Shown here piece by piece: positions 9,018 through 13,158 of a stretch of 13,158 nt of DNA. A program made the position numbers and the translations under genes. The stretch covers positions 1-13,158 of the forward strand of contig PWIZ01000025.1 in the NCBI GenBank assembly GCA_003560175.1, written 5' to 3'. The DNA comes from Halomonas sp. (lineage in GTDB: Bacteria; Pseudomonadota; Gammaproteobacteria; Pseudomonadales; Halomonadaceae). The stretch's first letter is position 1; each line of letters begins with the position of its first letter. The notes under the pieces are model-generated. The model made no database searches, was not told where the DNA came from, and saw only the letters and a list, made by a program, of their open reading frames with translations.

Positions 9018-9755
9018 TCAGGGGCGCTCCAGCATCTCTTCCACCGCCGGTTCGGCCCAGCAGTCCGCCTCCGCCTTGAGCTCCCTGACTCGCCGCTCAA
9101 GCATCGCCCGGGTTGCCCACTCCGCGGGGTGCTGCTCGCCGAAGTGCAGCGCTACCCGGGCGCGGAAGCGGCGCGGCCGGCCGCTGAGAGCCGGACCGTT
9201 GGCGTGGGAGGTCCAGGAACCCCACAGACCCGAAAGCCCTGCCGGAATCACCGGCACCGGGTCCCGTGCCAGGATCAGCTCCAAGCCTCGACGGAAGTCG
9301 TGGATCTCCCCGTCCGGCGTCAGGCGCCCCTCGGGGAAGAGCATCACCACCTCGCCGTCGCTCAGGGCTCGACTCACCTCGTGAAGAGCACGGCGAACGT
9401 TGCCCGGGTCGTGGCGCTCCGACTCCACGGGGATCGCCCCCACCAGGCGGAACAGCCAATTGAGCCAGGGCGAGTCGTAGATCGGCTTGTCCATCAGGAA
9501 GCGTAGCGGGCGCCGACTGGCGCCGCCGATGACCAGGGCATCCATGAAGCTGACATGGTTGCAGACCACCAGGGCCGCACCATGGGCGGGAATATGGTCT
9601 GCGCCGCGCAGGCGCAGCCGGTAGACGAGACGCACCGTGAGGGAGACCAGGAGGCGCACCACCGGTCGCGGGCGACGCACCAACCACCAGATCAGCATCA
9701 GCCCCAGGCCAGCGAGCACTGCCCAGACAGCCAGCCCCCACTCCAGGGCAATCAC
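9018..9755 (-). CDS. PlsC-type 1-acyl-glycerol-3-phosphate acyltransferase family protein
   Basis: Membrane-associated acyltransferase of the LPLAT/PlsC superfamily, which transfers acyl chains to lysophospholipid-like acceptors; the real substrate is not determinable here. The 245-residue product has one N-terminal membrane helix (about 5-26), then a basic stretch. Block I is the catalytic NHVSFMD (His67, Asp72), block III is FPEGR (140-144), and block IV is VPVIPAGLSG (167-176). These match the HX4D and FPEG signatures and are intact. Length fits PlsC-like proteins (about 240-270). The start is GTG at 9755, overlapping the TGA of the upstream tetR gene by four bases (GTGA), with GAGG about 11 nt away, so translation is probably coupled to the regulator. 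It is not the essential plsC with certainty; it could be an accessory paralogue for membrane or lipid A remodelling, which the regulator pairing favours. Confidence 0.85.
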   Translation of the reverse strand: MIALEWGLAVWAVLAGLGLMLIWWLVRRPRPVVRLLVSLTVRLVYRLRLRGADHIPAHGAALVVCNHVSFMDALVIGGASRRPLRFLMDKPIYDSPWLNWLFRLVGAIPVESERHDPGNVRRALHEVSRALSDGEVVMLFPEGRLTPDGEIHDFRRGLELILARDPVPVIPAGLSGLWGSWTSHANGPALSGRPRRFRARVALHFGEQHPAEWATRAMLERRVRELKAEADCWAEPAVEEMLERP

Positions 9756-10369
9756 GTCGTGGACGGCCTCGCCTTGAGCCCCGCCAGGATGGTGCAGAGC
9801 AGTTGGTCCAGCAGTTCGCCGACCTCCAGCTGCTGACCCTGCCAGTAGCCCAGGCGTTCATTGAGCCCGAGCAGCACCAGGCCGTGAACGCTGCCCCAGA
9901 GGGTGCGTGCAAGGCGCCGAGCCTCCAGGTCATCCAGCGCCGGCTGATACTCCTTCAGGGTAGCCTCCACGCGCAGAAAGAGCCCTTCGATCATGTCGCT
10001 CTGACGCTTGTCCAGCTCGCCCTCCTGGGCCAGGGGATAGTCGAACAGCAGCTGCCAGCGATAGGCATCGCGCTGGGCAAACTCCCAATAGGCGCGCGCC
10101 AGGGCGCTGAGCCGCTCCTTCGGGGTGGCTTCGCTGGTCAACGGCTCGATCACTTCGCGCAGGTGCGCCAGGGTCTCGATGTTGACGTGCTGCAACAGAT
10201 TATTGAAGCTGCCGTACAGCTTGAGCAGGGTGCTGGGAGCGCAACCCACCTCCCGGGCCAGGGCGCGCAGGGAGAGGCTGTGCACCGGGTTCTCCTGCAG
10301 CCAGGCACCGCAAGCCGCCATGACCTGGGCATGGAGCGCCTCGGGTGCATGCTGTCTGGGACGAGCCAT
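9752..10369 (-). CDS. TetR/AcrR-family transcriptional regulator
   Basis: One-component repressor-type protein, 205 residues, typical for the family. The N-terminal helix-turn-helix is about residues 33-56 (SLRALAREVGCAPSTLLKLYGSF). The C-terminal ligand domain contains TLWGSVHGLVLLGL (157-169), resembling the W..HG signature of WHG-type TetR C-domains. The frame is open upstream to 10516, but the ATG at 10369 (MARPRQHAPE) is used because GAGGA lies 4 nt upstream. It is followed by the acyltransferase gene with a 4-base overlap, and both are probably one operon. A candidate promoter (10443-10472) and a palindrome (10409-10434) upstream suggest autoregulation. The effector is unknown; fatty acid or acyl-CoA sensing is a guess from the neighbour. 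Confidence 0.88.
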   Translation of the reverse strand: MARPRQHAPEALHAQVMAACGAWLQENPVHSLSLRALAREVGCAPSTLLKLYGSFNNLLQHVNIETLAHLREVIEPLTSEATPKERLSALARAYWEFAQRDAYRWQLLFDYPLAQEGELDKRQSDMIEGLFLRVEATLKEYQPALDDLEARRLARTLWGSVHGLVLLGLNERLGYWQGQQLEVGELLDQLLCTILAGLKARPSTT

Positions 10370-10408
10370 CGTTTCCTCGCGAGCCTCGAGCGGGCGGTTG
10401 CGTAAGCG

Positions 10409-10588: not shown

Positions 10589-11263
10589 ATGGCCGGACGA
10601 CTGCATATCGCCCCCTTCGACCTCGCGCGCCTGCTGCCAGAACTGACCGTCGACGCTCCCTTGGTGACCAGCCCCAACATGGCCCCGCGCCGCATGCTCT
10701 CGGCCATTCGCCTGGAGGCTGGCCGGCTGCGGCTAAGCCGGCTGTTCTGGGGACTCACCCCACCCTGGCTGGAAGTACTCGACCACGCGCCCCACTGCGC
10801 CCGAGCAGAATCGCTGGAGTCGCGCCCGATGTTCCGCGAGGCCTTCCAGGCGAGGCGATGCCTGGTGCCGGCCAGCGGCGTCTATGCCTGGAAACCCCAG
10901 CCGCGTTTCAAGCAGCCCTTCCTGATAACCCGAGTCGACCGCGGCCCGCTGCTGCTGGCGGGGCTGTGGTGCCGCTTCCACACCAGCCTGGCGGAGCATA
11001 CCGACTCCCTGGCGCTGATCACGGTATCGACCAATCGGCTGCTGGCGCCGCTCACCGACCGCCTGCCGGCGGTGATCGACCCCGCACAGGCACAGCGCTG
11101 GCTCGATCCCGAAACGCCGCTGGAGGAGGCCCGGGCCCTGCTCGTTCCCGCCCCGTTGGAACTGTTGGGCGCTTTCCCGGTATCAAGACGTGTGAACAGT
11201 CCCGCGCAACAGGACGCCGCCTGCGCCCATCCGGTCGGGCCGATGCTGCGCCAGCCCGACTGA
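10589..11263 (+). CDS. SRAP (YedK/HMCES)-family protein lacking the catalytic residues
   Basis: 224 residues, about the size of E. coli YedK. The SRAP fold is evident from SPNMAPRRM (28-36), FWGLTPPWL (53-61), CARAES (70-75), a run covering residues 79-95 that leads into GVYAW (97-101), TDRLPAVI (156-163) and AFPVSRRVNSP (195-205). Active SRAP proteins link Cys2 to abasic sites in single-stranded DNA, helped by Asn75, Glu105 and His160 (YedK numbering). Here the second residue is Ala (MAGR instead of MCGR), NARxE reads CARAE (Cys70), the WFEW/FYEW Glu reads Ala100 (GVYAW), and the His before Asp-Arg reads Thr156. All four appear substituted, so cross-linking is predicted to be lost. A role in DNA binding or regulation is possible. 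The start is set by GGAG 5 nt upstream. It is divergent from tetR and 49 nt upstream of the M16 protease gene. Confidence 0.82.
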   Translation: MAGRLHIAPFDLARLLPELTVDAPLVTSPNMAPRRMLSAIRLEAGRLRLSRLFWGLTPPWLEVLDHAPHCARAESLESRPMFREAFQARRCLVPASGVYAWKPQPRFKQPFLITRVDRGPLLLAGLWCRFHTSLAEHTDSLALITVSTNRLLAPLTDRLPAVIDPAQAQRWLDPETPLEEARALLVPAPLELLGAFPVSRRVNSPAQQDAACAHPVGPMLRQPD

Positions 11264-11312: not shown

Positions 11313-13158
11313 ATGTCCCTTACCCCGACCGCCCGCGGCCTGGCCGCTGCCGCGGCCCTGCTGATCACTGGCCCCGCCCTTGCCGAGCCCGCCCCCGAGG
11401 CCGACGCCATCGCCGAGGTGGTCACGCCGCTGGTCAGCCCCCACGACAGCCGCGACTACCGGGTACTGACCCTGGAGAACGGCCTCACCGCCCTGCTGGT
11501 CAGCGACCCCGATGCGGACAAGGCTGCCGCCTCCATGAACGTCTCGGTGGGCAGCGCTCAGGACCCGGGTGACCTCGCCGGCCTGGCCCACTTCCTGGAG
11601 CACATGCTGTTCCTGGGCACCGAGCCCTTTCCGGAAGCCGATGCCTACCAGGGCTATATCTCGCGACACGGCGGCAGCCACAACGCCTTTACCGCGCCAC
11701 GGGACACCAACTACTTCTTCGACATCGATCCCGACGCCCTGGAAGGCGCCCTGGACCGCTTCAGTCAGTTCTTCATCTCACCGCTGTTCAACGCCGACCA
11801 GCTGGAGAGTGAGCGCAATATCGTGCACTCCGAATACATGGCGCGCATCCGCGATGACGGCCGGCGCGAGAACGACGTGCTCAACGCGCTGCTCAATCCG
11901 GAGAACTCCACCACCGGCTTCTCCGTAGGCAGCCGCGAGACCCTGGCCGACCGCCCCCCGGGCGAGCCCAGCCTGCGCGAACGGGTGATCGACTTCTACC
12001 AGCGCTACTACGACGCCAACGTCATGCAGCTGGCGCTGGTGGCACCGCAGCCCCTGGACGAGCTCGAGTCTCTGGTCGCCGAGCGCTTCGCCGTCATCGC
12101 CGACCGCGGGCTGTCCGCTCCCCAGATCACCGAGCCGCTGGTGCTCGACGACACCCTCCCCCAACGGGTCGCGCTGCAATCGGTGCGCGACAGCCGTCAG
12201 CTGCGCCTGCTGTTCCCGATCCCCGACCCCATCGCCGAGTATCGGCACAAGCCCGCCGACCTCATCGCCCACCTGCTGGGCCACGAGGGTGACGGCAGCC
12301 TGCTGGCGGTGCTGCGGGAGGCCGGCTGGGCCGATGGCCTATCCGCCGGGGTCTCCCGCAGTGACGGCCACCACGCCCTGTTCAGCGTCAACGTCAGCCT
12401 GACCCCGGCCGGCGCCGAGGCTCGCGACGCCATCGAGGCAACCCTCTTCGCCGCCATCGAACGGCTACGCGAGGGGGGGCTCGAGGCATGGCGCTACGAC
12501 GAGAAGGCGAGGCTCGCCGAGCAGGAGTTTCGCTTCCAGCAGCATGGCGCGCCCCGCCAGGAGGCCATGCGGCTTTCCATGAACCTGTCGCGCTTCCCGG
12601 TGGAAGACGTGCAGTATGCCGCCTACCGCATGGATGGTTTCGAGTCTGAGCGCAGCGAGGCCTACCTCGATGCCCTCACCCCCGACAACCTGATCCGACT
12701 CTACAGCGCCCCCGACGTGGAGGGCGACGAAACCTCCCCCTGGTTCCACGCCCCTTGGGGTAAAGACAGGGTTGAAGACAAACGCCAGGAGGACAGTACC
12801 GCAGCCGCAGCGCTGTCCGGCCTGGCACTGCCCGATCCCAACCCCTTCATCGCCGAGGACCTCACGCTGCGTGACGCCCAGGACGAACGACCGCAGCGGC
12901 TGGTGGAGGAGCCAGCCTTCGACCTCTGGCACATGGCGGACGCCACCTTCAACACCCCCAAGGTGGAGTGGCGATTCAGCCTGCAGCACCCGGATGCGGC
13001 CAGCTCCGCCCGGGATGCCGCGCTGGCCCGGCTGCTGGCCGGCTGGCTGGATGACAGCCTCAACGAGGCCTTCTATCCGGCGCGCCTGGCCGGCCAGCAC
13101 TTCGAGGCCTATGCCCACGCACGCGGCATCACCCTCTCCTTCTCCGGCTGGCGCGACC
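11313..13158 (+). CDS. Pitrilysin-type M16 zinc peptidase, cut by window edge
   Basis: Secreted zinc metallopeptidase of family M16 (pitrilysin/insulinase subfamily), expected to degrade peptides in the periplasm. An N-terminal signal peptide is clear: hydrophobic stretch about 9-22, likely cleavage after GPALA at residue 25 minus one (Ala24). The zinc motif is His93-Phe-Leu-Glu96-His97, with Glu174 exactly 76 residues after His97, the family inverted HXXEH and third ligand; Glu167 is the conserved preceding acidic residue. The GGSHNAFT and NYFFDI segments are also typical. The visible 615 residues correspond to roughly two thirds of a 900-960 residue pitrilysin-like protein; no stop codon occurs before the right edge. 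E. coli PtrA is the nearest named relative, but I leave the symbol blank because orthology cannot be judged. It lies 49 nt after the SRAP-family gene and is probably cotranscribed with it. Confidence 0.92.
   Translation, partial: MSLTPTARGLAAAAALLITGPALAEPAPEADAIAEVVTPLVSPHDSRDYRVLTLENGLTALLVSDPDADKAAASMNVSVGSAQDPGDLAGLAHFLEHMLFLGTEPFPEADAYQGYISRHGGSHNAFTAPRDTNYFFDIDPDALEGALDRFSQFFISPLFNADQLESERNIVHSEYMARIRDDGRRENDVLNALLNPENSTTGFSVGSRETLADRPPGEPSLRERVIDFYQRYYDANVMQLALVAPQPLDELESLVAERFAVIADRGLSAPQITEPLVLDDTLPQRVALQSVRDSRQLRLLFPIPDPIAEYRHKPADLIAHLLGHEGDGSLLAVLREAGWADGLSAGVSRSDGHHALFSVNVSLTPAGAEARDAIEATLFAAIERLREGGLEAWRYDEKARLAEQEFRFQQHGAPRQEAMRLSMNLSRFPVEDVQYAAYRMDGFESERSEAYLDALTPDNLIRLYSAPDVEGDETSPWFHAPWGKDRVEDKRQEDSTAAAALSGLALPDPNPFIAEDLTLRDAQDERPQRLVEEPAFDLWHMADATFNTPKVEWRFSLQHPDAASSARDAALARLLAGWLDDSLNEAFYPARLAGQHFEAYAHARGITLSFSGWRD

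Follow-up and report, generated by a model that had tools for sequence, protein, structure and literature searches.

SRAP proteins are commonly regarded as suicide cross-linkers defined by a cysteine at residue 2, and human HMCES carries a long C-terminal tail besides its SRAP domain. The catalytic residues of Escherichia coli YedK are Cys2, Asn75, Glu105, and His160 (PDB 6NUA, 6KCQ, 8D2M), the SRAP domain of HMCES has the same tetrad (PDB 5KO9, 6OEA, 6OEB, 6OOV), and PMC3765255 calls the cysteine absolutely conserved across the superfamily. Here I describe a protein with the SRAP fold that, in contrast to both, lacks the entire tetrad. It is encoded in a stretch of 13,158 nucleotides from Halomonas sp. 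(contig PWIZ01000025.1, assembly GCA_003560175.1; hereafter the window) and has Ala, Cys, Ala, and Thr at the four positions. This disarmed SRAP, as I call it, is best read as a chromosomal, family-wide pseudoenzyme and is near-universal in the sampled Halomonas-type bacteria, and its family is an exception to the absolutely conserved cysteine. Source databases file the Halomonas proteins under "SOS response-associated peptidase" and "Abasic site processing protein", labels that the residues, as read from the sequence, do not support. The literature searched, with most subscription papers outside its scope, contained no description of SRAP proteins without catalytic residues, nor did passages of PMC8041192, PMC10250235, and PMC11078745.

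The catalytic tetrad and the rest of the fold

The PF02586 SRAP profile scores 145 bits against the protein (curated cut-off 27.1), placing it in the superfamily, and the SRAP fold is present. Structural alignment pairs residue 2 with residue 2, and the HMMER alignment to YedK chains, which begins at query residue 22, pairs Cys70 with the Asn of NAR, Ala100 with the Glu of FEW, and Thr156 with the His of HDR. The four altered segments read MAGRLHIAP, HCARAES, SGVYAWK, and APLTDRLPA in the translation (Table 1). A preliminary description of the window, made from its letters alone, had read MAGR, CARAE, GVYAW, and LTDRLP as replacements of the catalytic Cys2, Asn75, Glu105, and His160, and the translation and both alignments bear this out.

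Its further claim of a clean start also holds. A missed upstream start supplying Cys2 can be ruled out in the window, where the only in-frame candidates before the stop at 10403 are ATG 10520, CTG 10463, and GTG 10415, none of them followed by Cys. An in-frame Cys does lie four codons 5' of ATG 10589, with no start codon immediately preceding it, and GGAG stands 5 bases 5' of that ATG. Eighty orthologous loci from named genomes were also examined (the 80 named loci below). They rank highest among 584 confirmed loci, are biased toward close relatives, and come from Halomonas, Billgrantia, Litchfieldella, Vreelandella, Modicisalibacter, Onishia, Franzmannia, and Bisbaumannia. Cys2 is missing from all 80, and the single locus with an upstream in-frame start directly followed by Cys is read as chance.

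To see what else had been lost, an alignment was assembled from 176 Halomonas-type rows, 21 Oceanospirillum-type rows, 14 Pseudomonas-type rows, and 40 canonical rows; the Halomonas-type rows contain near-duplicates and copies (together with the Oceanospirillum-type rows they make 197, with 182 distinct sequences), and the canonical rows include a hand-typed YedK row. The 40 canonical SRAPs have 25 positions with an invariance of 95% or more. Of these, the Halomonas type has lost the four catalytic ones altogether (0.00, not one of the 176 rows keeping any of them) and retains the remaining 21 at 0.87-1.00, so that the catalytic centre is gone while the conserved surface around it has stayed. 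Every catalytic residue is gone from the window's protein and the 21 other canonical-invariant residues are kept. Arg72 and Arg158, the arginines of NAR and HDR, are each at 1.00 in the Halomonas-type rows. If positions are treated as independent, random loss of four of the 25 would hit exactly the tetrad once in 12,650. Relaxing the threshold to 90% admits 31 canonical positions, of which one more, Ala148, is lost from the Halomonas type, where it stands at 0.22.

In an alignment of the 120 top-ranking homologues out of 834, residue 2 is Ala in 117, Thr in two, and Pro in one, and residue 70 is Cys in all 120, whereas residue 100 (Val 75, Ala 27, Leu 15, Ile 3) and residue 156 (Thr 63, Ser 41, Gly 15, Val 1) vary. 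The near-invariance of Cys70 in the Halomonas branch is a feature that the preliminary description left unstressed. There are exceptions within the group: L071, from one genus, has Ile at 70 and a GTG start; L072, from one genus, reads CARLD and retains Cys70; and the divergent genera represented by L073, L074, and L075 have Met, Ser, or Thr at 70 and Val, Glu, or Gln at 100.

Table 1. Positions in the window of the disarmed SRAP gene, its altered codons, and the adjoining genes.
Feature	Position	Strand	Basis and remarks
Disarmed SRAP, SRAP-fold protein without any of the four catalytic residues	10589..11263	+	224 aa plus stop; translation, Pfam, structural alignment
Codon 2, Ala for catalytic Cys2	10592..10594	+	translation; homologue alignment
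Codon 70 (TGC), Cys for YedK Asn75	10796..10798	+	HMMER alignment to YedK; homologue alignment
Codon 100, Ala for Glu105	10886..10888	+	HMMER alignment to YedK; homologue alignment
Codon 156, Thr for His160	11054..11056	+	HMMER alignment to YedK; homologue alignment
M16 (pitrilysin-like) peptidase, runs past window end	11313..13157	+	Pfam, NCBIfam; alternative start ATG 11289
TetR-type regulator, divergent, upstream of disarmed SRAP	9752..10369	-	Pfam (scan on 9752-10408); start 10369 is a reading by hand

Distribution, selection, and descent

A whole-genome search of the host's family found a match to the disarmed SRAP in 198 of 201 genomes, every best match at E <=1.4e-36. When other genera were sampled by one genome each, it was present in 21 of 23, being absent from two genera and one further genome (24 genomes). 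A Pfam search for any SRAP matched 148 of 151 family genomes, with a single match in 88 and more in 60 by hand count, fragments included; G077, G083, and G134, listed as 95-99% complete, had no SRAP match. All 148 also match the disarmed protein at E <=1.4e-36, compared with 1.2e-29 for the family's best canonical copy; because of this far stronger match I infer that the single copy is the disarmed one in the 88 genomes, including those in which its sequence was not read. The preliminary description had raised a second, canonical MCGR paralogue as a check. None accompanies this SRAP in the host assembly, although at 72% completeness its absence there is not established; across the family, further matches occur in the 60 genomes noted above, and the canonical MCGR extras are patchy, with fragments among them (e.g. 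L024, L036, L040, L002, L012). A near-universal disarmed form that is the sole SRAP match of 88 genomes offers a natural separation-of-function experiment on SRAP without cross-linking.

Selection was assessed on 59 distinct coding sequences, whose starts were set by the pattern Met or Val, then Ala, Thr, Pro, or Ser, then GRL, which fitted every core locus. The ratio of nonsynonymous to synonymous substitution rates (dN/dS, NG86) is 0.09-0.33 for the 15 closest pairs, with a median of 0.275 across the 1140 pairs with dS of 0.05-1.5 (values were obtained for 1603 of 1711 pairs). Synonymous variation is seen at the Cys70 codon (TGC 41, TGT 14) and likewise at those for Ala2, Arg4, Arg72, and Arg158. 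The gene is under purifying selection. Together with family-wide presence and conserved gene order, this supports the proposal that the protein represents a pseudo-SRAP subfamily under selection and not recent decay in a single strain. A mobile gene was also considered and rejected: hits occurred in 1227 plasmid and 53 phage records, but none of them reached 60% identity.

The sister branch of the Halomonas type consists of Oceanospirillum-type proteins (P0121-P0138, L073-L075). Like the disarmed SRAP these lack Cys2, Asn, and His (each 0.00 in 21 rows), residue 2 being Thr, Pro, or Ser, but they keep Glu (0.90), except that L073 and L075 are without it as well. Both types fall into a single clade (100/100, stem 0.99) in an 84-row tree (IQ-TREE, LG+C20+F+G4 PMSF), divided between an Oceanospirillum branch (100/91) and a Halomonas one (99/95). 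The extra canonical copies of the host's family cluster with YedK (99/92), itself a long branch whose row was typed by hand. The tree thus places the loss of Cys2, Asn, and His at the root of this clade or earlier, and that of Glu chiefly in the Halomonas branch. The four coordinated losses first described are therefore real in the Halomonas type but were not simultaneous. The series from Oceanospirillum (Glu remaining after the loss of Cys2, Asn, and His) to Halomonas (Glu gone too) provides testable steps between lyase-like and inert forms. Outside the family, in a class-wide search of 369 genomes, Asn, Glu, and His are kept in 27 of 27 fetched loci and Cys2 in 25, the N-terminus being unread in two, and of 12 order-level loci outside the family ten have Cys2 and two, of Pseudomonas type, have Ser2.

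What the disarmed SRAP might do

Loss of the tetrad with retention of the rest suggests, from sequence, that the protein now works by binding and not by cross-linking. The preliminary description had put forward binding of DNA ends or single-stranded DNA, or regulation, as candidate roles. The nearest experimental analogue is the YedK C2A laboratory mutant, seen in a Schiff-base complex (PDB 8D2M; PMC9436759), of which the disarmed SRAP, with Ala at the same residue, is a natural counterpart. Because the equivalents of Asn75, Glu105, and His160 are gone as well, it is predicted to be far less reactive than C2A. Cys2-blocked E105Q and H160Q forms of YedK bind DNA without cleaving it, and N75A has a modest effect at an internal apurinic/apyrimidinic (AP) site and a larger one at a 3'-PUA end. 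By analogy, next to no activity is expected of a protein with Ala2 and neither Glu nor His, and weak lyase activity of the Oceanospirillum type, which has Glu.

On balance I favour a non-covalent binder of single-stranded DNA, abasic sites, or DNA ends, because of this predicted near-inertness. Such a protein would still bind what other SRAP proteins bind, single-stranded DNA bearing an abasic site, gap, or 3' end, on a surface predicted to include the conserved Arg4, Arg72, Arg158, and Trp101. The covalent thiazolidine cross-link to AP sites is predicted to be absent, and opening of the abasic sugar would hardly be possible. The protein might serve as a reversible shield or recruiter in place of a suicide cross-linker, with a free N-terminal alanine in a small uncharged pocket that perhaps reads the lesion. 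Several points weigh against this. Arg72 and Arg158 are assigned their DNA contacts as the counterparts of R98 and R212 of HMCES, and the conserved residues may serve the fold alone. The co-directional neighbour is a probably periplasmic M16 peptidase and not a repair gene, and a perfect LexA box (CTGT-N8-ACAG) was found within 250 bp upstream at none of the 80 named loci (L239 was scanned from a wrong start), a stretch that thus gives no sign of SOS control.

The M16 neighbour and the missing LexA box speak instead for an exapted fold that would have left DNA for another ligand or partner, possibly one tied to the M16 peptidase. The two genes are paired on one strand in all 80 named loci and in 20 of 20 genomes (16 genera), and nine of those 20 loci have a candidate M16 start that overlaps the last 4 bases of the SRAP gene. 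Exact retention of the canonical-invariant residues outside the tetrad nevertheless fits an ancestral ligand surface better, and M16 enzymes of this type are probably periplasmic, whereas the disarmed SRAP has no signal peptide by eye. This explanation is unlikely, if the strongest of the alternatives.

A less likely explanation still is that the chemistry was relocated. The Ala, Thr, Ser, or Pro found at residue 2 of all 182 distinct Halomonas- and Oceanospirillum-type sequences is consistent with removal of Met1, after which the amine of Ala2 could attack the abasic aldehyde and Cys70, invariant among the 120 homologues and maintained through both of its codons, could trap or tune the Schiff base, giving another covalent adduct or a slow AP lyase. 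YedK C2A lends this some credence, since it is trapped as a Schiff base through its N-terminal Ala and is lyase-active, and residue 75 of YedK, to which Cys70 is equivalent, hydrogen bonds to the residue-2 backbone (PMC9436759). However, Glu is gone, and the C2A E105Q lyase is 25-fold slower than C2A; moreover, residue 70 is Ile in one genus and Ser, Leu, Ala, Thr, or Met in the sister branch. Slightly more doubtful again is a true migration of the nucleophile, in which the free N-terminal amine (Ala, Thr, Pro, or Ser) would have been kept and the thiol moved from residue 2 to 70. Abasic sites or 3' aldehyde ends would then react covalently in a new way, reversibly or through a different bond, with no need of a Glu/His acid-base pair. 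Finally, neutral decay or an annotation artefact (a missed start or assembly error) might be imagined, since tetrad loss could be the first step of decay and the host assembly is fragmentary (439 contigs), but the orthologue set has already refuted it, with conservation across the family, dN/dS well below 1, and no in-frame stop among the orthologues listed.

Gene neighbourhood and other SRAP lineages

The conserved neighbours found for the disarmed SRAP are tetR, the M16 gene, and sbcB; no name-based search for polymerase genes was made around it. Exonuclease I, the product of sbcB, is specific for single-stranded DNA. Its gene follows M16 convergently in 20 of 20 genomes (16 genera), its identity resting on Pfam RNase_T and Exonuc_X-T_C in two genes checked. 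Divergent tetR is present in 18 of these genomes and was not found in L147 and L148; it lies upstream in 79 of the 80 named loci, and in L197 it overlaps the SRAP start by a few bases. The SRAP-M16-sbcB order is retained even at 37-41% SRAP identity (L129-L148, L265), the Oceanospirillum type showing it in L147, L148, and L265, and a twenty-first genome, that of L074, whose closest named relatives are Oceanospirillum, keeps all three genes with no tetR match. Ten open reading frames flanking nine canonical loci comprise a Y-family polymerase in three cases, HsdR, a weak transposase match, and MoeA in one each, and no assigned family in four. The upstream acyltransferase gene, free-standing in the window, carries a fused MFS transporter domain in L139 (1943-3976).

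Neither the window's tetR or M16 nor the sbcB of L132 was found at E 1e-5 in any of six 15-kb stretches of Pseudomonas type, and the 84-row tree does not resolve whether the disarmed SRAP and the Pseudomonas type share an origin. The Halomonas type has further group-specific conserved residues, His69 (1.00), Cys128 (0.93), and Cys212 (0.98), the last common to the Pseudomonas type. A Cys70-Cys212 disulfide or metal pair was rejected because the Pseudomonas type carries Cys212 without Cys70. A second, separate altered lineage occurs in Pseudomonas and Stutzerimonas (P0144-P0263; L092-L097, L101): among the best 120 of 7535 matches, the Asn position holds Gln (84) or His (36), Glu is kept in all 120, Cys2 is replaced by Ser in 26, and the His160 loop is shorter. 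In L092, of this type, an M48 peptidase is the next gene on the same strand.
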